Shown: piece after piece, positions 2,232-51,090 of the stretch
Position numbering within the stretch: position 1 is the stretch's first letter
Layout: each line of letters begins with the position of its first letter
Assembly: GCF_027579695.1 (NCBI RefSeq)
Contig: NC_083579.1
Location: 67,218,871-67,282,870, forward strand
DNA length: 64,000 nucleotides
Direction of reading: 5' to 3'
Source of the DNA: Neoarius graeffei
Taxonomy: Eukaryota > Chordata > Actinopteri > Siluriformes > Ariidae
Program-made: the position numbers and the translations under genes
Notes under the pieces: model-generated
Seen by the model: only the letters and a program-made list of their open reading frames with translations
What the model was told of the DNA's origin: nothing
The model's database searches: none

Positions 2232-2273
2232 TATAATAATAATAATAATAATAATTATTATTATTATTATTAT
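2232..2273. repeat. (TAA)n to (TTA)n microsatellite
   Basis: A run of TAA triplets switches to TTA triplets, so the tract is self-complementary. It abuts the left edge of the composite tandem array. Confidence 0.9.
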
Positions 2274-5200
2274 TAATTAAATGATGCATTTTTGAAACTG
2301 CTCTTTGCTTCTCATAATATAGGTTGTTGGGTGAGCTCATGGTGCAACAGTTGGTTTGTTGCAAATTACTACAAGCTGGAGAATAGCTCGAGTCCTAGTA
2401 TAGCTATTGTATTGTCCATCCATTATCTGTAGCTGGTTATCCTGTCCTACAGGGTCGCAGGCAAGCTAACCTATCCCAGCTGACTATAGGTGAGAGGCGG
2501 GGTACACCCTGGACAAGTCGCCAGATCATCGCAGGGCTGACACATAGACACAGACAGCATTTTTTAACATACTTACTGGGAGACCAAATGGTCTTTGGAC
2601 TGTGGTGGAAACACAGGGAGAACATGCAAACTCCACACAGAAAGGCCCTCGCCGGCTGCTGGGCTCGAACCCAGGACCTTCTTGCTGTGAGGTGATGCTA
2701 ACCGCTACACCACCGTGCCGGCCCAATCTGAATACAGTATTTATTTAATGTAACTACAAGATCATGATGCACGGTGGTGTAGTGGTTAGCACTGTCGCCT
2801 CACAGCAAGAAGGTCCTGGGTTTGAGCCCAGCAGCCGGCGAGGGCCTTTCTGTGTGGAGTTTGCATGTTCTGCCTGTGTTTCCACAGTCCAAAGATATGC
2901 AGGTTAGGTTAATTGGTGGCTCTAAATTGACCGTAGGTCTGAATGTGAGTGTGAATGGTTGTTTGTCTCCGTGTCAGCCCTGCGATAACCTGGCGACTTG
3001 TCCAGGGTGTACCCCGCCTCTCGCCCATAGTCAGCTGGGATAGGGTCCAGCTTGCCTGCGACCCTGTAGAACAGGATAAAGCGGCTAGAGATAATGAGAT
3101 GAGATTAATTAAATGATGCATTTTTGAAACTGCTCTTTGCTTCTCATAATATAGGTTGTAGGGTGAGCTCATGGTGCAACAGTTGGTTTGTTGCAAATTA
3201 CTACAAGCTGGAGAATAGCTCGAGTCCTAGTATAGCTATTGTATTGTCCATCCATTATCTGTAGCTGGTTATCCTGTCCTACAGGGTAGCAGGCAAGCTA
3301 ACCTATCCCAGCTGACTATAGGTGAGAGGCGGGGTACACCCTGGACAAGTCACCAGATCATCGCAGGGCTGACACATAGACACAGACAGCATTTTTTAAC
3401 ATACTTACTGGGAGACCAAATGGTCTTTGGACTGTGGTGGAAACACAGGGAGAACATGCAAACTCCACACAGAAAGGCCCTCGCCGGCTGCTGGGCTCGA
3501 ACCCAGGACCTTCTTGCTGTGAGGTGATGCTAACTGCTACACCATCGTGCCGGCCCAATCTGAATACAGTATTTATTTAATGTAACTACAAGACCATGAT
3601 GCACGGTGGTGTAGTGGTTAGCACTGTCGCCTCACAGCAAGAAGGTCCTGGGTTTGAGCCCAGCAGCTGGCGAGGGCCTTTCTATGTGGAGTTTGCATGT
3701 TCTCCCTGTGTTTCCACAGTCCAAAGATATGCAGGTTAGGTTAATTGGTGGCTCTAAATTGACCGTAGGTCTGAATGTGAGTGTGAATGGTTGTTTGTCT
3801 CCGTGTCAGCCCTGCGATAACCTGGCGACTTGTCCAGGGTGTACCCCGCCTCTCGCCCATAGTCAGCTGGGATAGGGTCCAGCTTGCCTGCGACCCTGTA
3901 GAACAGGATAAAGCGGCTAGAGATAATGAGATGAGATTAATTAAATGATGCATTTTTGAAACTGCTCTTTGCTTCTCATAATATAGGTTGTAGGGTGAGC
4001 TCATGGTGCAACAGTTGGTTTGTTGCAAATTACTACAAGCTGGAGAATAGCTCGAGTCCTAGTATAGCTATTGTATTGTCCATCCATTATCTGTAGCTGG
4101 TTATCCTGTCCTACAGGGTAGCAGGCAAGCTAACCTATCCCAGCTGACTATAGGTGAGAGGCGGGGTACACCCTGGACAAGTCACCAGATCATCGCAGGG
4201 CTGACACATAGACACAGACAGCATTTTTTAACATACTTACTGGGAGACCAAATGGTCTTTGGACTGTGGTGGAAACACAGGGAGAACATGCAAACTCCAC
4301 ACAGAAAGGCCCTCGCCGGCTGCTGGGCTCGAACCCAGGACCTTCTTGCTGTGAGGTGATGCTAACTGCTACACCATCGTGCCGGCCCAATCTGAATACA
4401 GTATTTATTTAATGTAACTACAAGACCATGATGCACGGTGGTGTAGTGGTTAGCACTGTCGCCTCACAGCAAGAAGGTCCTGGGTTTGAGCCCAGCAGCT
4501 GGCGAGGGCCTTTCTATGTGGAGTTTGCATGTTCTCCCTGTGTTTCCACAGTCCAAAGATATGCAGGTTAGGTTAATTGGTGGCTCTAAATTGACCGTAG
4601 GTCTGAATGTGAGTGTGAATGGTTGTTTGTCTCCGTGTCAGCCCTGCGATAACCTGGCGACTTGTCCAGAGTGTACCCCGCCTCTCACCCATAGTCAGCT
4701 GGGATAGGGTCCAGCTTGCCTGCGACCCTGTAGAACAGGATAAAGCGGCTAGAGATAATGAGATGAGATTAATTAAATGATGCATTTTTGAAACTGCTCT
4801 TTGCTTCTCATAATATAGGTTGTAGGGTGAGCTCATGGTGCAACAGTTGGTTTGTTGCAAATTACTACAAGCTGGAGAATAGCTCAAGTCCTAGTATAGC
4901 TATTGTATTGTCCATCCATTATCTGTAGACGGTTATCCTGTCCTACAGGGTCGCAGGCAAGCTAACCTATCCCACCTGACTATAGGCGAGAGGCGGGGTA
5001 CACCCTGGACAAGTCGCCAGATCATCGCAGGGCTGACACATAGACACAGACAACCATTCACGCTCACATTCACACCTACGGTCAATTTAGAGCCATAAAT
5101 TAGCCTAACCTGCATGCCTTTGGACTGTGGGGGAAACGGGAGCACCGGAGGAAACCCACACGGGCACATTATCATGCAAACTCCAGGCAGAAAGGGCCTC

Positions 5201-6137
5201 GCCAGCCACTGGGCTCGAACCCAGGACCTTCTTGCTGTGAGGTGATGCTAACTGCTACACCACCGTGCCGGCCCAATCTGAATACAGTATTTATTTAATG
5301 TAACTACAAGACCATGATGCACGGTGGTGTAGTGGTTAGCACTGTCGCCTCACAGCAAGAAGGTCCTGGGTTTGAGCCCAGCAGCCGGCGAGGGCCTTTC
5401 TGTGTGGAGTTTGCATGTTCTCCCTGTGTTTCCACAGTCCAAAGATATGCAGGTTAGGTTAATTGGTGGCTCTAAATTGACCGTAGGTCTGAATGTGAGT
5501 ATGAATGGCTGTTTGTCTCTGTGTCAGCTCTGCGATAACCTGGCGACTTGTCCAGGGTGTACCCCGCCTCTCACCCATAGTCAGCTGGGATAGGGTCCAG
5601 CTTGCCTGCGACCCTGTAGAACAGGATAAAGCGGCTAGAGATAATGAGATGAGATGAGATTTTTGAAACTGCTCTTTGCTTCTCATAATATAGGTTGTAG
5701 GGTGAGCTCATGGTGCAACAGTTGGTTTGTTGCAAATTACTACAAGCTGGAGAATAGCTCGAGTCCTGGTATAGCTATTGTATTGTCCATCCATTATCTG
5801 TAGCCGGTTATCCTGTCCTACAGGGTCACAGGCAAGCTAACCTATCCCAGCTGACTATAGGCGAGAGGCAGGGTACACCCTGGACAAGTCGCCAGATCAT
5901 CGCAGGGCTGACACATAGACACAGACAACCATTCATGCTCACTTTAGAGCCATAAATTAGCCTAACCTGCATGCCTTTGGGGGAAACCGGAGCAAACCCA
6001 CGTGGACACGTTATCATGCAAATTCCACGCAGAAAGGGCCTCGCCAGCCACTGGGCTCAAACCCAGGACCTTCTTGCTGTGAGGCGAAAGTGCTAACCAC
6101 TACACCACCCTGCCGGCCCAATCTGAATATAGTATTT

Positions 6138-28602: not shown

Positions 28603-28969
28603 GGCGGCACGGTGGTGTAGTGGTTAGCGCTGTCGCCTCACAGCAAGATGGTCCGGGTTCGAGCCCCGTGGCCGGCGAGGGCCTTTCTGTGCGGAGTTTG
28701 CATGTTCTCCCCGTGTCCGCGTGGGTTTCCTCCGGGTGCTCCGGTTTCCCCCACAGTCCAAAGACATGCAGGTTAGGTTAACTGGTGACTCTAAATTGAC
28801 CGTAGGTGTGAATGTGAGTGTGAATGGTTGTCTGTGTCAGCCCTGTGATGACCTGGCGACTTGTCCAGGGTGTACCCCGCCTTTCGCCCGTAGTCAGCTG
28901 GGATAGGCTCCAGCTTGCCTGCGACCCTGTAGAACAAGATAAAGTGGCTACAGATAATGAGATGAGATG
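28603..28969 (+). mobile_element. V-SINE in dispersed block
   Basis: A full copy with target duplications AGGACACTTTT at 28591-28601 and 28970-28980. Copy 1 of the block has a single uninterrupted GGACACTTTTT at this place. Confidence 0.93.
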
Positions 28970-29003
28970 AGGACACTTTTCTCGATGGAATAAAAACCAT
29001 GTA

Positions 29004-36249: not shown

Positions 36250-36605
36250 GGCGGCACGGTGGTGTAGTGGTTAGCGCTGTCGCCTCACAGCAAGAAAGTC
36301 TGGGTTCGAGCCCCGTGGCCGGCGAGGGCCCTTCTGTGCGGAGTTTGCATGTTGTCCGCGTGGGTTTCCTCCGGGTGCTCCGGTTTCCCCCACAGTCCAA
36401 AGACATGCAGGTTAGGTTAACTGGGGACTCTAAATTGACCGTAGGTGTGAATGCGAGTGTGAATGGTTGTCTGTGTCGGCCCTGTGATGACCTGGTGACT
36501 TGTCCAGGGTGTACCCCGCCTTTCGCCCATAGTCAGCTGGGATAGGCTCCAGCTTGCCTGTGACCCTGTAGGACAGGATAAAGTGGCTAGAGATAATGAG
36601 ATGAG
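36250..36605 (+). mobile_element. V-SINE, full length
   Basis: Target duplications ATTATATGGCRGGG lie at 36236-36249 and 36606-36619. The GATGA-type tail is short. Confidence 0.92.
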
Positions 36606-36619
36606 ATTATATGGCAGGG

Positions 36620-39254: not shown

Positions 39255-39630
39255 GGGCGGCACGGTGGTGTAGTGGTTAGCGCTGTCGCCTCACAGCAAG
39301 AAGGTCCTGGGTTCGAGCCCCGTGGCCGGCAAGGGCCTTTCTGTGTGGAGTTTGCATGTTCTCCCCGTGTCCGTGTGGGTTTCCTCCGGGTGCTCCGGTT
39401 TCCTCCACAGTCCAAAGACATGCAGGTTAGGTTAACTGGTGACTCTAAATTGACCGTAGGTGTGAATGTGAGTGTGAATGGTTGTCTGTGTCTATGTGTC
39501 AGCCCTGTGATGACCTGGCGACTTGTCCAGGGTGTACCCTGCCTTTCACCCATAGTCAGCTGGGATAGGCTCCAGCTTGCCTGCGACCCTGTAGAAGGAT
39601 AAAGCGGCTACAGATAATGAGATGAGATGA
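39255..39630 (+). mobile_element. V-SINE, full length (best reference copy)
   Basis: All parts are present in order. The tRNA-like head has an A-box-like GTGTAGTGGTTAG and a B-box GGTTCGAGCC, and would supply an internal pol III promoter. A conserved central V-domain follows (GTTTGCATGTTCTCCCC, TCCAAAGACATGCAGG). The LINE-like 3' part ends GATAAAGCGGCTACAG, and the tail is (GATGA)n. Target duplications GATATTTTAG lie at 39245-39254 and 39631-39640. The layout is that of DANA/Mermaid-type V-SINEs. Confidence 0.95.
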
Positions 39631-39683
39631 GATATTTTAGGCATATTATCCATAACACAGGGTGTGTGTATGTGTATATATAT

Positions 39684-40041: not shown

Positions 40042-40396
40042 ATCTCTAGCCGCTTTATCCTTCTACAGGGTCGCAGGCAAGCTGGAGCCTATCCCAGCTG
40101 ACTACAGGTGAAAGGCGGGGTACACCCTGGACAAGTCGCCAGGTCATCACAGGGCTGACACATGGACACAGACAACCATTCACATTCACACCTACGGTCA
40201 ATTTAGAGTCACCAGTTAACCTAACCTGCATGTCTTTGGACTGTGGGGGAAACCGGAGCACCCGGAGGAAACCCACGCGGACACAGGGAGAACATGCAAA
40301 CTCCACACAGAAAGGCCCTTGCCGGCCATGGGGCTCGAACCCGGACCTTCTTGCTGTGAGGCGACAGCGCTAACCACTACACGACTGTGCCGCCCT
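40038..40396 (-). mobile_element. V-SINE between TA repeat and Tc1
   Basis: A full minus-strand copy. Its head abuts the left end of the Tc1 at 40397, which may explain why that Tc1 lacks a clean left terminus. Confidence 0.9.
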
Positions 40397-40599: not shown

Positions 40600-42000
40600 A
40601 TGGCCAAGACCAAAGAGCTGTCAAAGGACACCAGAAACAAAATTGTAGACCTGCACCAGGCTGGGAAGACTGAATCTGCAATAGGTAAGCAGCTTCATCT
40701 CATCTCATTATCTGTAGCCGCTTTATCCTGTTCTACAGGGTCACAGGCAAGCTGGAGCCTATCCCAACTGACTACGGGCGAAAGGCGGGGTACACCCTGG
40801 ACAAGTCGCCAGGTCGTCACAGGGCTGACACATAGACACAGACAACCATTCACACTCACACCTACGGTCAATTTAGAGCCACCAGTTAACCTAACCTGCA
40901 TGTCTTTGGACTGTGGGGGAAACTGGAGCACCCGGAGGAAACCCACGCGGACATGGGGAGAACATGCAAACTCCGCACAGAAAGGCCCTCGCCGGCCACG
41001 GGGCTCGAACCTGGACCTTCTTGCTGTGAGGCGACAGCACTAACCACTGCACCACCATGCCACCCAGGTAAGCAGCTTAGTGTGAAGAAATAAACTGTGG
41101 GAACAATTATTAGAAAATGGAAGACATACAAGACCACTGATAATCTCCCTCGATCTGGGGCTCCATTGCAAGAGCTCACCCCGTGGGGTCAAAATGATAA
41201 GAATGGTGAGCAAAAATCCCAGAACCACATGGGGGGACCTAGTGAATGACCTGCAGAGAGCTGGGACCAAAGTAACAAAGGCTACCATCAGTAACACACT
41301 ACGCCGCCAGGGACTCAAATCCTGCAGTGCCAGACGTGTCCCCCTGCTTAAGCCAGTACATGTCCAGGCCCGTCTGAAGTTTGCTAGAGAGCATTTGGAT
41401 GATCCAGAAGAGGATTGGGAGAATGTTGTATGGTCAGATGAAACCAAAATAGAACTTTTTGGTAAAAACTCAACTTGTCGTGTTTGGAGGAGAAAGAATG
41501 CTGAGTTGCATCCAAAGAACACCATACCTACTGTGAAGTATGGGGGTGGAAACATCATGCTTTGGGGCTGTTTTTCTGCAAAGGGACCAGGACGACTGAG
41601 CCGTGTAAAGGAAAGAATGAATGGGGCCATGTATCGTGAGATTTTGAGTGAAAACCTCCTTCCATCAGCAAGGGCATTGAAGATGAACCGTGGCTGGGTC
41701 TTTCAGCATGACGATCCCAAACACACAGCCCGGGCAACGAAGGAGTGGCTTCGTAAGAAGCATTTCAAGGTCCTGGAGTGGCCAAGCCAGTCTCCAGATC
41801 TCAACCCCATAGAAAATCTTTGGAGGGAGTTGAAAGTCCGTGTTGCCCAGCGACAGCCCCAAAACATCACTGCTCTAGAGGAGATCTGCATGGAGGACTG
41901 GGCCAAAATACCAGCAACAGTGTGTGAAAACCTTGGGAAGACTTACAGAAACCGTTTGACCTCTGTCATTGCCAACAAAGGGTATATAACAAAGTATTGA
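40600..42000 (+). pseudogene. Tc1-like transposase, family G, split by SINE
   Basis: The frame starts MAKTKELSKDTRNKIVDLHQ (helix-turn-helix). It is cut by a SINE after AIGKQL at 40696 and resumes at 41079 with a TAA (VKK-stop) and a frameshift before 41194. From 41194 to 42000 it is open for 268 codons. The second helix-turn-helix half ([11 protein letters not shown]), D in [13 protein letters not shown] in [10 protein letters not shown] (one residue shorter than usual) and E in [11 protein letters not shown] are present. The catalytic half is thus well preserved while the DNA-binding half is destroyed. Confidence 0.9.
40696..41065 (-). mobile_element. V-SINE inside Tc1 family G
   Basis: Target duplications AGGTAAGCAGCTT lie at 40683-40695 and 41066-41078, within the transposase N-terminal coding region. 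Confidence 0.94.

Positions 42001-43917: not shown

Positions 43918-44002
<85 letters not shown>
43917..44002. repeat. (TG)n(TA)n microsatellite at 3' end of retrotransposon
   Basis: A short TG run then about 70 bp of TA. The retrotransposon 3' end joins it directly at about 44003. Confidence 0.95.
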
Positions 44003-44007
<5 letters not shown>

Positions 44008-44064
44008 CTCCTTCTCACCCCCGGCGGGGGGGTGGTATCCATGTCATCCTCAAGCTCGGGTCCT

Positions 44065-47000
44065 CTACCAGAGGCCTGGGAGTTTGAGGGTTCTGCGCAG
44101 TATCTTCGATGTTCCTAGGACTGCGCTCTTCTGGACTGAGGCTTCAGATGTCGTTCCTGGGATTTGCTGGAGCCACTCTCCCAGTTTGGGGGTTACTGCC
44201 CCAAGTGCCCCCACTACCACGGGGACCACGCAACCCTTGACCTTCCACATCCATTCCAGCTGCTCTTTCAACCCTTGATACTTCTCAAGTTTCTCATGTT
44301 CCTTCTTCCTGATGTTGGCGTCAGCTGGGATCGCCACATCTATCACCACCACCCTCTTCTGCTCTTTGTCCACCACCACTATGTCCGGTTGGTTAGCCAG
44401 GATCTGTTTGTCAGTCTGGAAGCTGAAGTCCCACAGAATCTTGGCCCTGTTGTTCTCAGCCACCTTCTGTGGTATGGCCCATTGGGACTTGGGTATTTCT
44501 ATTCCATATTGGTTGCAGATGTTCCTGTATACTATCCCAGCCACTTGGTTGTGCCTCTCCATGTACGCTGATCCAGCTAGCATCTTACACCCTGCTACTA
44601 TGTGCTGGACTGTTTCAGGGGCTTCTTTGCACAGTCTGCATCTTGGGTCTGATCTACTCTGGTAGATCCTGGCCTCTATGGCTCTTGTGCTTATGGCCTG
44701 TTCTTGTGCTGCCATGATTAGTGCCTCTGTGCTGTCTGTCAGTCCTGCATTATCCAGCCACTGGTAGGATTTCTTGATATCAGCCACTTCCTCTATCTGA
44801 CGGTGGTACATGCCATGTAGGGGTTTGTCTCTCCAGGTTGTCTGTTCCTCCTCCTCCTCTGCACTCTCATCAGGGTTCTGCTGCCTGAGACATTCACTTA
44901 GCAGTTCATCCTTTGGGGCCATCTTTCTGATGTATTCTCGGATTTTCGATGTTTCATCCTGGACCGTGGTCTTGACGCTCACTAGCCCTCGGCCTCCCTC
45001 TTTCCGCTTAGTGTATAGTCTCAGGGTGCTGGACTTGGGGTGGAACCCTCCATGCATGGTGAGGAGCTTTCTAGTCTTGATATCTGTGGCTTCTATCTCC
45101 TCCTTTGGCCAGTTTATGATACCAGCGGGGTATCTGATGACTGGTAGTGCGTACATGTTGATGGCTCGGACCTTGTTTTTACCATTCAGCTGACTTTTCA
45201 GGACCTGCCTTACTCTCTGGAGGTATTTGGCTGTGGTTGACTTCCTTGTGGCCTCTTCATGGTTTCCATTAGCCTGTGGGATGCCAAGGTACTTGTAGCT
45301 GTCTTGGATATCACCTATGTTGCCCTCTGGTAGGTCAATCCCTTCAGTCCGGATCATCTTGCCTCTCTTTGAGACCATCCGGCCACACTTGTCCAATCCG
45401 AATGACATCCCTATGTCATCGCTGTAGATCCGGGTGGTGTGGATCAGCGAGTCTATTTCTTGCTCATTCCTGGCATACAGCTTGATGTCATCCATGTAGA
45501 GCAGGTGGCTGATTGTTGCCCCACTACGGAATCGGTACCCGTAGCCACTCTTCGTGATGATCTGACTGAGGGGGTTCAGGCCTATGCAGAACAGCAGTGG
45601 TGATAGCGCATCTCCTTGGTATATGCCGCACTTGATGTTGACTTGGGCAATGGGTTTTGAGTTGGCCTCTAGGGTTGTCTTCCACATTTCCATTGAGTTC
45701 TGTATGAAGGTCCTTAGGTTCCTGTTGATCTTATACAGTTCCAGACATTCCAGTATCCATGTGTGTGGCATTGAGTCATAGGCTTTCTTGTAGTCAATCC
45801 AGGCAGTGCACAGGTTGGTCTGTCTCTTCTTACAGTCTCGGGCGACTGTTCTATCGGCCAGTAGCTGGTGCTTGGCTCCTCTGGTGTTACTGCCAATTCC
45901 TTTCTGTGCCTCGCTCATGTATTGAGCCACATGCTTACTCATTTTTGCCGCAATGATGCCTGACAGGGCCTTCCATGTTGTGCAGAGACAGGTAATTGGC
46001 CGGTAGTTGGATGGGATGGGTCCCTTCTGGGGGTCCTTCATGATTAGGACTGTCCTGCCTTGGGTTAGCCATTCTGGGTGGGTTCCATCCCTCAGCAGCT
46101 GGTTCATCTGTGCTGCTAGGCGTTCATGGAGTGCAGTTAGCTTCTTCAGCCAGTACGTATGGATCATATCGGGGCCTGGTGCTGTCCAGCTCTTCATCTT
46201 TGACACTCTTTCTTGGACGTCTGCCATTGAGATGGTTACTGGTTCTTGTTCTGGGAGGTTGCTGTGGTCCGCTCTTAGGTCCACTAACCATTGGGCATCG
46301 GTGTTGTGTGATGCCTTTCTTTCCCATATGTCTTTCCAGTATTTTTCCACCTCAGCTCTTGGTGGGTCTGACCGGTTGTTGTTCCCCTGCCATTGAGAGT
46401 ACACCTTGGCTGGTTCAGTGGAGAACAGCTTGTTTATTCTCCTGGCCTCTCCTTCCTTGGTGTATCTCCTCAACCGGGTGGCCAGAGCTGTTAGTCGCTG
46501 TTTGGCAGTTTCGAGTGCCTCTGGTATGGAGAGTGAGTTGTACTTCCTGGGCGCCCCTTTATTCACCATGTTCCCTTTCTGTAGTTCAGCTAGCTGGCTA
46601 ACTTCTCTCCTTGCTGCCTTTATCTTGGCCTCTAATCGTCTCTTCCATGGTGGATACTGTTTATGTCCCGAGCCCACCTTGTGTCCAAGCATCTCCATGA
46701 TTACTGTTCTGTGTATCAGCTTGTTGGTCTCAGTGATGGTTCTTGTGGAGATTGTCTTCAGAGCAGCATTCACATCTACTAGTAGATCTTCTGAAGGTAC
46801 TTGGCAACTCAGCTTCGGTATTCGTCGGGGGCTCCAGGTTTCCAGTTGGGTCACGATCTTCCTTCTCAGGTCAGCAGCTCTTGTGCTGAGGCTGTTAGCT
46901 GTTGGGGCTTGGTATCCAATCTCTGGTTGTGGGGATGATGACATCTCCCCGCTGACCTGTCTTCCTGGCTCCCCCTTGCCGTAGCATCGTTGTTGTATTT

Positions 47001-47343
47001 CATTAATCTCTAGTTGTGATAGCAGATTTCGATTATGGATGTTGGAACACTGGGCTAATAGCTGTTTCTTTGTTAGCCTTGATTGTGGGTTTCGAAGTAT
47101 CCAATGGTCCCACATTCTCTGCATGTATCCCCTCTCTCTGGGATTGCTTGTATAGTAGCATTCCAGCAAATCCGTATTTTCTGTCCTCGTCCATCGATGT
47201 CTTGTTCCAGTAGCCCATTTCTCATCAGTTTGCCCTGGTTCCCTAGCAACTGACGCAGACCTTGTTGACCCGGGCGACGTCTGAGCCGGTATGACTCTAT
47301 CAGTTATGTTTTCACTCATTCCTGAGGTAGGCTGATATATCAT
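44065..47343 (-). CDS. reverse transcriptase with Myb-like and restriction-like endonuclease domains
   Basis: This is a single 1092-residue ORF without stops. Residues of about 45-115 look like a Myb/trihelix DNA-binding domain (RHRWTRTENTDLLECYY ... LTKKQLLAQ). The reverse transcriptase spans roughly 390-700: PGPDMIHTYW, NYRPITCL, WIDYKKAYDS, GIYQGDALSPLLF, and the catalytic YMDD at 616-619. A CCHC knuckle follows at 902-919 (CRLC ... H ... C). A restriction-like endonuclease carries PD at 986-987 and the second acidic residue D1002 in VVVIDVAIPAD. This is the single-ORF architecture of R2/R4-type elements, where the endonuclease nicks the target and the RT primes from the nick. The closest clade is inferred as R4/Rex6-like. 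The start at 47343 is the first ATG after the tRNA-like head, and an ATG at residue 9 is an alternative. Confidence 0.9.
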   Translation of the reverse strand: MIYQPTSGMSENITDRVIPAQTSPGSTRSASVAREPGQTDEKWATGTRHRWTRTENTDLLECYYTSNPRERGYMQRMWDHWILRNPQSRLTKKQLLAQCSNIHNRNLLSQLEINEIQQRCYGKGEPGRQVSGEMSSSPQPEIGYQAPTANSLSTRAADLRRKIVTQLETWSPRRIPKLSCQVPSEDLLVDVNAALKTISTRTITETNKLIHRTVIMEMLGHKVGSGHKQYPPWKRRLEAKIKAARREVSQLAELQKGNMVNKGAPRKYNSLSIPEALETAKQRLTALATRLRRYTKEGEARRINKLFSTEPAKVYSQWQGNNNRSDPPRAEVEKYWKDIWERKASHNTDAQWLVDLRADHSNLPEQEPVTISMADVQERVSKMKSWTAPGPDMIHTYWLKKLTALHERLAAQMNQLLRDGTHPEWLTQGRTVLIMKDPQKGPIPSNYRPITCLCTTWKALSGIIAAKMSKHVAQYMSEAQKGIGSNTRGAKHQLLADRTVARDCKKRQTNLCTAWIDYKKAYDSMPHTWILECLELYKINRNLRTFIQNSMEMWKTTLEANSKPIAQVNIKCGIYQGDALSPLLFCIGLNPLSQIITKSGYGYRFRSGATISHLLYMDDIKLYARNEQEIDSLIHTTRIYSDDIGMSFGLDKCGRMVSKRGKMIRTEGIDLPEGNIGDIQDSYKYLGIPQANGNHEEATRKSTTAKYLQRVRQVLKSQLNGKNKVRAINMYALPVIRYPAGIINWPKEEIEATDIKTRKLLTMHGGFHPKSSTLRLYTKRKEGGRGLVSVKTTVQDETSKIREYIRKMAPKDELLSECLRQQNPDESAEEEEEQTTWRDKPLHGMYHRQIEEVADIKKSYQWLDNAGLTDSTEALIMAAQEQAISTRAIEARIYQSRSDPRCRLCKEAPETVQHIVAGCKMLAGSAYMERHNQVAGIVYRNICNQYGIEIPKSQWAIPQKVAENNRAKILWDFSFQTDKQILANQPDIVVVDKEQKRVVVIDVAIPADANIRKKEHEKLEKYQGLKEQLEWMWKVKGCVVPVVVGALGAVTPKLGEWLQQIPGTTSEASVQKSAVLGTSKILRRTLKLPGLW

Positions 47344-47382
47344 GAGGGGTTTTGCCTAAGGACCCTTACTGGATGATGTTTT

Positions 47383-47452
47383 GCCCCGACCGGGATTCGA
47401 ACCCCGATCTCCTGCGTCGTAGTCAGTGAGCATTACCACTGTACTATCCAGC
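47383..47452 (-). other. tRNA-like head of the RLE retrotransposon
   Basis: On the minus strand an A-box-like TAGTACAGTGGTAATGCTC and a perfect B-box GGTTCGAATCC stand about 30 bases apart, with an anticodon-arm-like segment between. The acceptor stem does not pair well, so this is not a functional tRNA. It most likely supplies an internal pol III-type promoter or a SINE-derived 5' end. It ends 40 bp before the ORF. Confidence 0.7.
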
Positions 47453-47465
47453 TGATATATATATA

Positions 47466-48689: not shown

Positions 48690-49070
48690 GTCCTCTCATC
48701 TCATCTCATTATCTCCAGCCGCTTTATCCTGTTCTACAGGGTCGCAGGCAAGCTGGAGCCTATCCCAGCTGACTACAGGCGAAAGGCGGGGTACACCCTG
48801 GACAAGTCGCCAGGTCATCACAGGGCTGACACATAGACACAGACAACCATTCACACTCACATCCACACCTACGGTCAATTTAGTCACCAGTTAACCTAAC
48901 CTGCATGTCTTTGGACCGTGGGGGAAACTGGAGCACCTGGAGGAAACCCACGCGGACATGGGGAGAACATGCAAACTCCGCACAGAAAGGCCCTTGCCGG
49001 CCACGGGGCTCGAACCCGGACATTCTTGCTGTGAGGCGACAGCGCTAACCACTACACCACCGTGCCACCC
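48690..49070 (-). mobile_element. V-SINE in LINE 3' region
   Basis: Target duplications TCTGCCTGTCCT lie at 48678-48689 and 49071-49082. Confidence 0.92.
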
Positions 49071-49327
49071 TCTGCCTGTCCTCATTCTCATATATTTTTA
49101 GTAACATGTTTTTATATAATTTTTTAAACAGTTTTATGTTGGTGCTATTTTTGAGCTCATTATCCAGACCATTCCACAATTGCAGCCCACAGACTGTTAT
49201 GCACATACTTTTCAGAGTTGTTCTAACTTTTACTCTCTTAAAATTTATTTCCCCTCTCAGGTTATACCCACCCTGCGTTTACATAAACATATTTTGTACC
49301 TCACCCAGAAGAAGGTTATGTCTTGCT

Positions 49328-51090
49328 TTATACATAATTTGTGCAGTCTTGTTTAACCAGATCAGTGAATTTCAGAGTGTGTGCTTTTACGAATAATGCG
49401 TTTGTATGCTCAAGATATCCCGTATTATTGAAGATTCTTATTGCTCTTTTTTTGTAATGTGCATAACGGCTGTAGGTTAGATTTGTAGGTATTACCCCAT
49501 ATCTCCACACAGTAGCTCAGATATGGAAGTATGAGTGCATTATACAGAGTATGTAGTGATTTATAGTCCAGAATGTGTCTTGGTTTCCCCAAAATTGCAG
49601 TAATCTTTGCTATTTTTGCTTTAACATGATTTAATATGTGGTTTCCAGCAGATTTTATGATCAACAATCACACCCAGAAATTTTATTTCATAAACTGTTT
49701 CTATGGTTATGTTGTCAATTTTCAATTCAACTTGAGGGTTCGACTTATATTTTCCAAATAACATAATCTTTGTTTTACTCAAATTCAATGACAATTTGTT
49801 TACATTAAACCACCTTTTTAATTTATTAATTTCGGTTGCGATTGTCTCCATAAGCTGCTGTACATTGTCCCCGGCTCAAAAGATGTTTGTATCATCGGCA
49901 AATAAAATGCATTTCATTATACATGATACATTACATAAGTTATTAATATACAATATAAACAGTTTAGAACCTAAGACAGACCCTAGTGGTACTCCACATG
50001 TTATGGGCAAATAATCAGACGTGTGATCTTCAATTTTTACAAATTGCTGCCTGTTGCTTAAGTAGCTCCTCACCCAGTCCAAACCCACCCCTCTGATACC
50101 ATACTTCTCTAATTTGTTGAATAGAATGTCGTGATTTATTGTGTCAAATGCTTTCTTTAGATCTATGAAAATTCCCATAACATGTTTTTTATTGTCTATA
50201 CCATTTGTGATTTTCTCGATAAGTTCCATTAATGCCAGGGTTGTTGATCTGTCTTTCCGGAATCCGTATTGACTGTCAGCTAAAAGTTTGTGTTTTTCAA
50301 TAAAGTTATCTAGTTTTGCTGTAAACAGTTTTTCGAGGATCTTGGAGAACTGAGAGAGTAAAGAAACTGGCCTGTAATTTGTGTAATGGTGTCTATCCCC
50401 ACATTGATATAAAGGTATAACTTTAGCTATTTTCATGTTGTTTGGAAATTTACCAGATTGAAAAGACATATTACATATGTGAGTAAATGGTTCTGCAATT
50501 TCTTCAATAACTTTTTTTTTTTTTACTAAACTTGTATCATTCCAGTCAGTGGAGGTTTTGTTTTCACTTCTCCTTACAATGTCTATGACCTCTTTTATAC
50601 CAACTGCACCAGTGAATATAGATTTAGGATTTCTCTCCCATCGAGCAGCCTCCGCCCCTCCAGGTGTGTCTGTATCCGGAATCTTTTCTGCCAGATCTGG
50701 TCCCACATTTAGAAAGAATCTATTAAAACCATTTACCACTTCTTCCATATTATTTATTGATCTGTCATTCTGAATATAATGATCAGGGTAGCTTGTGTTT
50801 TTGTTTTTAGCTCCATTCCTAATAATACTATTCAGAACATTCCATAGCCCCTTCATGTTATTTTTATTACTATCTAATTTATTATAATATTCCTTCGTAC
50901 ATGTCCTCATAATGCTGGTTAATTTATTCTTGTATTTTTTTATTTAATTTCTGCCTCTAAGGTTCTTTTTTTTTTTATGAATTGTCTATACAGCGTAATT
51001 ATTATTATTATTTTTTTTAAATACACAGGCATTTTTTAATCCTTTGGTGATCCATGTTTTAGTGGCTTTGATCCGTACAAAATTCCTCGA
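49328..51090 (-). pseudogene. LINE reverse transcriptase remnant
   Basis: The frame is readable from about 51080 (WITKGLKNAC) through the 344-codon stretch 50910-49876. RT motifs in order are IAKVIPLYQCGD, NYRPVSLLSQFSK, QYGFRKDRST, GIFIDLKKAFDTINH, ITCGVPLGSVLG and the active-site FADD. A TGA follows TNIF near 49873. The same frame continues to about 49621 (NKLSLNLSKTKIM, FLGVIVD), and frameshifts then lead to LPYLSYCVEIWG and the C-terminal end near 49328. The order fits CR1/L2/jockey-type LINEs. At least one stop and two shifts make it non-functional. Confidence 0.85.

Follow-up and report, generated by a model that had tools for sequence, protein, structure and literature searches.

Long interspersed nuclear elements (LINEs) of the R2 group (R2; R4/Dong/Rex6; NeSL; Hero), which carry a restriction-like endonuclease (RLE), have a single open reading frame (ORF) with a reverse transcriptase (RT), a CCHC knuckle and a PD...D motif. 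Microsatellite targets are described in this group, TAA repeats for Dong (with a primer containing TAA repeats; PMC3774820) and (TG)n for Togen (PMC4640811), and R4 and Dong are described as carrying a self-cleaving ribozyme at the 5' end (PMC3774820). The common view is that LINEs are transcribed by RNA polymerase II (pol II) or co-transcribed as ribosomal DNA elements, and that pol III makes short non-coding RNA. Here we analyse a LINE, labeled E, in a 64-kb stretch of the Neoarius graeffei genome (C11:67218871-67282870, hereafter the window). E has the ORF organization of the R2 group; unlike R4 and Dong it has a tRNA-type head where these carry the ribozyme, and unlike R2-group LINEs it targets TA and has a body free of T-runs that ends in a T-run. 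We propose that E may be transcribed from end to end by pol III.

Two other kinds of retroelement resemble E in part. As in tRNA-derived short interspersed nuclear elements (SINEs; class SINE2), A and B boxes lie a few bases from its 5' end and it terminates in a T-run; unlike them it is 3.46 kb long, encodes its own RT and a predicted endonuclease and, with an intact ORF of 1092 codons, is neither short nor non-coding. Helenus, Ajax and Cassandra (TRIMp3) are retroelements that likewise contain pol III promoter sequence of tRNA- or 5S-like type, but are described as short non-autonomous long terminal repeat elements (311-1263, 421-434 and 565-860 bp, in that order; PMC10886601). Our literature search found no pol III LINE and no such head among the titles and abstract openings it covered, with subscription papers and Repbase Reports outside its scope. 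E itself is a very young, high-copy retrotransposon with near-identical copies. We number it E1-E3462 along the minus strand (E1 is window position 47464); no second copy was found within the window, and genome-wide searches covered 2.34 Gb.

The pol III consensus strings are TRGYNNARNGG for the A box and GWTCRANNC for the B box. A scan with these found one A box (TAGTACAGTGG) and one B box (GTTCGAATC) in the 145-nt leader of E, at the promoter spacing of a type-2 pol III gene; such a pair arose in a fraction of 0.0001 of 20,000 dinucleotide shuffles of the leader. An earlier note on this DNA had placed a tRNA-like module with these boxes directly before the ORF, and this proves correct. The module is tRNA-like, not a tRNA: ARAGORN reported none, and the Rfam tRNA model gave 17.8 bits against a cut-off of 29 (E-value 0.29), so a true tRNA gene was rejected. 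The same box scan found 15 further A-B pairs in the window, many inside a tRNA-headed repeat. Several of the 16 pairs lie in this repeat of ~370 bases, which has a tRNA-like start, looks like an ordinary fish SINE and has many copies in the window (28603-28971, 36250-36607, 39255-39631, 40042-40396, 40695-41065, 48694-49071 and others).

The head belongs to the LINE, as the earlier note had supposed. The exact A-B box pair occurs at 728 sites genome-wide (reversed-pattern control, 0); we read 17 of these, picked for unusual spacer sequence, and all 17 continue into the LINE body at least to ~E297, ~170 bases beyond the head. A 465-base query (head plus ORF start) gave 1386 first-look candidates genome-wide, and the scored matches, a sample biased to good ones, all (40/40) start within the first four query bases (37 of them within the first two) and reach the query end. 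Of the 50 heads on contig C1, 40 are followed on the same strand by an exact YMDD motif at 0.9-2.5 kb, mostly at ~1.9 kb, and 40 of the 97 YMDD matches there are preceded by such a head; genome-wide, a degenerate motif around YMDD has 1447 exact matches (control, 0). Collecting copies from the other end gave a mixed result: among 20 chosen by their 3' end, the head stood at the expected place in five (four by script, L012 by eye), was masked in two and was missing from 13. Headless copies are expected in such a sample because LINEs are often truncated. From these surveys by box, YMDD and 3' end we conclude that the head marks the full-length 5' end and that many copies are truncated or rearranged.

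Two copies with non-TA 5' flanks (L097 and L102) begin at ATCAGCTGGA, and we therefore place the element start 9-10 nt before the A box; SINE RNAs start at a similar distance from theirs. The true 5' end of E is thus probably the TCAG/ATCAG at 47455-47456, and the AT run ahead of it (E1-10 is AT repeat) may belong to the target, not to the element. Rearranged copies were also seen. In L035 the head breaks off after its first bases (CAGCTGGATAGT) and continues at once with E2805, as template jumping or an internal deletion would produce. The truncated copies L015 (C3:93983055) and L019 (C3:93985034) lie in opposite orientation with 5' ends facing each other ~90 bases apart, one cut at E1882 and the other at E2855.

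The earlier note missed a further property of E, the T-run desert of its body and the T-run at its end. E contains 558 T (16%) and 34% A; before its terminus there are 40 TT and one TTT, and its only run of four T (T4) is the terminal TTTT, while A-runs of at least four number 10. Across 62 loci of E's family, 99,061 bases in all, no T4 was seen apart from the terminal run (a set from which five duplicate loci and hits <300 nt were excluded, and which still has pairs from one copy or overlapping places, namely L023/L067, L034/L068 and L015/L019). Seventeen older head-bearing copies have 2 T4 and 36 A4 in 11,073 aligned bases. A T-run of at least four is present at 28 of 30 3' ends, with run lengths from 2 to 22, a fraction inflated because the query for this sample contained TTTT. 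E's family, with that bias in its 3' sample, thus closes with a terminator-type T-run and has none inside, as does a type-2 pol III gene.

Because E is T-poor, its lack of T4 is weak as proof, and we therefore relied on TT, TTT and a sister family instead. Composition predicts 89 TT and 14 TTT, against the 40 and 1 found. The observed/expected ratio for TT is 0.45 in E and 0.91-1.23 in four neighbouring transposable element frames: three Tc1 frames (0.91-1.23) and a LINE fragment ~3 kb off (1.04), which has 6 T4 and 27 TTT in 1035 nt. This last control, at 49876-50910 on the minus strand, is a second, incomplete LINE RT frame rich in T-runs. The TT depletion is not a general U-dinucleotide effect, since the ratio for TA is 0.80 (that for CG is 0.33). 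When the E protein was recoded 3000 times with neighbour codon usage, T4 averaged 4.1 (some recodings had 0) against 0 in E, and T3 runs averaged 20 and never fell below 7 against 1 in E. The scarcity is visible in codon choice: Phe is encoded by TTT 0 times and by TTC 8 times, third-position T is rarer after T than after other bases (NTT v NTC, 16:76 vs 113:229; Fisher P=0.003), and it is also rarer at codon borders before T (P=0.04). Shuffling E's own codons gave a mean of 0.2 T4, with P=0.002 for the TT scarcity and P=0.07, not significant, for TTT. The signal in E is therefore the depletion of TT and TTT plus low T use, not T4 alone. A comparison of T4-creating mutations between private and shared ones (0/248 and 0/27) was without power.

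The YMDD motif search also matched copies of an older family, 73-79% identical to E. We read three of these sister copies at length and four partly (L117 and L119 duplicate S3 and L118 and were excluded). The element parts aligned by BLAST, 10,269 bases, hold 2 T4 and 51 A4, where their own T content predicts ~8 T4; the T-richer flanks, 17,278 bases, hold 152 T4 and 146 A4. These counts are somewhat biased, as BLAST alignment may favour E-like stretches. We simulated drift by applying the observed mutation spectrum to E until it had diverged by 19-23.5%; the sister family lies below the simulated range for T4/kb (0.19 vs 0.75-1.6), T3/kb (1.56 vs 4.4-7.4) and the TT ratio (0.52 vs 0.82-0.98). 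Low T-runs have thus probably been maintained in the sister family too.

Pieces of the head recur there as well and, judged by alignment, are homologous to the head of E. The A box of L136, TGGCTCAGTTG, matches at 10 of 11 positions, its B region being lost, while L137, L138 and L123 retain the T-arm (GGTTTGCACCCC, GGTTCATGCCCC and GGTTCACGCCCC) and have the A side cut or eroded; all three T-arms can be derived from GGTTCGCGCCCC by CpG decay and are one base off the B consensus. L123, the only one of 13 sister stretches examined for 5' ends to contain one, is 67% identical to E over E92-1341; its BLAST alignment begins at E92, and visual inspection matches its T-arm and anticodon side to the E head. 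A 37-nt sister A-box module has 16 sites genome-wide (control, 0), five of which lie 53-72 nt before a same-strand site of the sister tail motif (51 sites; control, 12). At most sister 3' ends, GTGGGG gives way to TA-rich or TCTA-repeat DNA. In L123, a reversed 5' part of an E-family element adjoins the sister element, with TA and TG tracts between.

The suggestion that insertions favour (TA)n has held up. TA tracts flank E on both sides, on the 5' side a short one at ~47455-47465. In 26 of 30 3' ends, this copy being one of the 30, at least three TA or AT units lie within 30 nt past the T-run, and by the same criterion 13 of 17 copies found by boxes alone are TA-rich upstream of the head; elsewhere in the window the background is 1.9% for the 3' and 2.4% for the 5' comparison. 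The exceptions are L010, L028, L035 and L036 on the 3' side and L097, L100, L102 and L104 on the 5' side. TA targeting by E's family is real, not absolute; target-site duplications are unreadable inside (TA)n. The sister copy S1 (L112) is followed by a (TCTA)n tract, not (TA)n.

E is predicted to be an autonomous R2-like LINE. Its ORF is intact, with a lone stop at its end, and the RT of non-LTR type recognized earlier by its YMDD is corroborated by a Pfam RVT_1 match (E-value 3.5e-26) and by R2 retrotransposon proteins as the closest PDB matches (4.5e-33), R2 proteins being its closest solved relatives. The knuckle (CRLC...H...C, from aa 902, downstream of the RT as in the R2 group) and the endonuclease (PDIVV at aa 986, VVVIDVAIP at aa 998) stand as the motifs that the earlier note had named: the stretches of R2 alignment over them are weak alone (i-Evalue 0.84 and 17) and zf-RVT is under its Pfam cut-off (E-value 0.0017), so these calls rest on motifs in the correct order. 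A Myb-like domain had also been claimed and was not recovered: it has no Pfam match up to an E-value of 1, and aa 1-130 have no PDB match up to 10. Early-branching LINEs are all said to have an N-terminal zinc finger/Myb (PMC5678591). A single protein scan of viral contigs and another of genome contigs brought up no relative. The start codon may be the ATG at 47343 (E122) or at 47319 (E146, aa 9); the first position lacks an ATG in sister copy L123 and has one in L136-L138, but past a 2-nt alignment gap. A 25-codon upstream ORF (uORF) at 47356-47433 on the minus strand begins inside the tRNA-like head, in the frame of the main ORF, and stops before it. The 3' untranslated region (UTR), the last 62 nt of E including the terminal TTTT (E3459-3462), folds into a hairpin of -16.2 kcal/mol, no better than shuffles (z -0.27).

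Directly visible are the module, where it stands and its recurrence in copies, the T-run pattern of both families and the TA targets. It is the T-run desert with its terminal T-run that makes the unusual head suggest pol III: for an element copied from RNA, pol III transcription from end to end would be the simplest single cause of 5' boxes, a 3' T-run and a body lacking T-runs. We infer pol III occupancy, start and stop, translation and target priming as follows. TFIIIC would bind the A and B boxes within the first 72 bases of E, and pol III would initiate 9-10 nt ahead of the A box, making the RNA 5' end the element 5' end and letting each full-length copy bring its own promoter to a new TA tract. 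With the body purged of T-runs, pol III could read through 3.4 kb and terminate at the T-run forming the 3' end. The RNA, uncapped and U-tailed, would be translated, and the encoded protein would nick (TA)n DNA and reverse transcribe the RNA from its 3' end. Functional mRNA can reportedly be made by pol III, as a 1995 title by Gunnery and Mathews has it. The pol III stop is described as oligo(dT) on the non-template strand, with La binding the oligo(U) end (PMC10498592). That E is a type-2 pol III gene starting 9-10 nt before its A box and ending at its own T-run is the view towards which we lean, by a little. On the larger claim, that of an autonomous protein-coding retrotransposon with a 3.4-kb pol III transcript as genomic RNA and mRNA, sustained by long-term purging of T-runs from the reading frame in at least two related families, we are evenly divided.

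A number of observations weigh against transcription by pol III. No tRNA covariance match was found in eight further head loci up to an E-value of 5. The T4 count alone is weak evidence (~2 expected by composition, and few in the own-codon shuffles), TTT scarcity is only suggestive in the own-codon test, and A-runs were low in that test as well, less so than T-runs. The comparators for T scarcity were confined to the four neighbouring frames and the sister family, which has head pieces of its own. In the sister family A4/kb (4.97) is also under its simulated range (7.1-9.4), a weaker effect that pol III leaves unexplained; none of the sister copies read holds both boxes, the B region departs from the consensus by one base, and no head can be recognised in the 5' region of S3. 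Only three of seven sister 3' ends have T4 nearby, with no consistent terminator, so a built-in terminator can be claimed for E's family alone. A uORF starts inside the head. Finally, the literature describes pol III products as short (PMC10498592) and non-LTR retrotransposons as using pol II, with pol III limiting retroelement length (PMC10886601).

Several of these points would suit transcription by pol II or from a flanking promoter, with the head a captured SINE-type sequence kept for RNA binding, translation, 5' marking or inertia, and with the scarcity of T just that of an A-rich, T-poor sense strand as in other LINEs. At 16% T and 34% A few T4 are expected in any case, A-runs are low too, and sister 3' ends often lack T4. 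Base composition of this kind does not account for the TT and TTT deficits, which the neighbouring frames do not share, nor for boxes whose distance from the 5' end is fixed and which recur in related form in a family 73-79% identical; we regard this explanation as unlikely, though it is the most serious rival. We give less credence to a division of labour in which the head drives pol III RNAs that are mainly short or serve only as RT template and the protein comes from separate pol II transcripts. It would agree with the described shortness of pol III products (PMC10498592) and with a head uORF that would hinder scanning, and it leaves the absence of T-runs across the whole ORF, beyond the first few hundred bases, unexplained.

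The head could instead be an RNA processing signal, at which RNase P or Z cuts a read-through transcript in place of the self-cleaving ribozyme of R2, R4 and Dong. The R4 and Dong ribozymes are described as cleaving at the element 5' end (PMC3774820), the T-arm and D-arm of the head are partly preserved, and no Rfam match to a hepatitis delta virus-like ribozyme was found at the 5' end of E, although R2-type ribozymes may escape Rfam models. We think this very improbable: by reading, the acceptor stem is unpaired, the cmscan match spans model positions 6-65 only, the element 5' end lies 2-3 nt ahead of the expected RNase P cut, and the T-run pattern is unexplained. Least credible of all is a separate SINE inserted upstream, the case that the earlier note named as its refutation. 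The boxes are of tRNA type and a direct repeat, ATATATCAGC, flanks the head in this copy, which could be taken for a target duplication. However, what looks like the second ATATATCAGC, where the ORF begins, corresponds to unrepeated sequence in the alignment with three homologous sister heads, and all 17 heads read lead into the LINE, so we reject a separate insertion for the copies read. Judged on sequence, pol III transcription is the best supported of these explanations. The intact tRNA-headed LINE in (TA)n that the earlier note had observed is confirmed, more strongly than that note could tell, and its interpretation is partly supported.

Table 1. Features of element E and its 3' flank in the window
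Feature	Position	Strand	Basis and remarks
Whole LINE E	44003..47464	-	3462 nt; boundaries taken from genomic copies
A box TAGTACAGTGG	47436..47446, from E19	-	consensus match; 9-10 nt from element 5' end
B box GGTTCGAATCC	47393..47403, from E62	-	consensus match; part of exact A-B pair search
Single ORF, 1092 codons	44065..47343, E122-3400	-	reading frame; alternative start 47319
RT catalytic YMDD, aa 616-619	45487..45498	-	motif
CCHC knuckle, aa 902-919	44587..44640	-	motif; zf-RVT below cut-off; weak separate R2 stretch
PD...D restriction-like endonuclease motif, aa 986-1022	44278..44388	-	motif; R2 alignment there weak alone
Short 3' UTR with hairpin CCACCCC/GGGGGUG	44007..44064	-	fold
Terminal TTTT	44003..44006	-	sole T-run of at least four in E; one more T at 44002
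(TA)36 target tract, 3' side of E	43931..44002	.	tandem repeat

Elsewhere in the window, 2272-6137 is a tandem-like array with a shift of ~832 bases, ~94% identical.

If E is indeed transcribed by pol III, a pol III transcript can serve as a natural mRNA of >3 kb, and codon usage would bear a readable mark of pol III termination. Such an element would link LINEs directly to SINEs in evolution, and it would explain how a LINE can retain its promoter independently of the target site. The young, near-identical copies of E make the claim testable by ordinary means.

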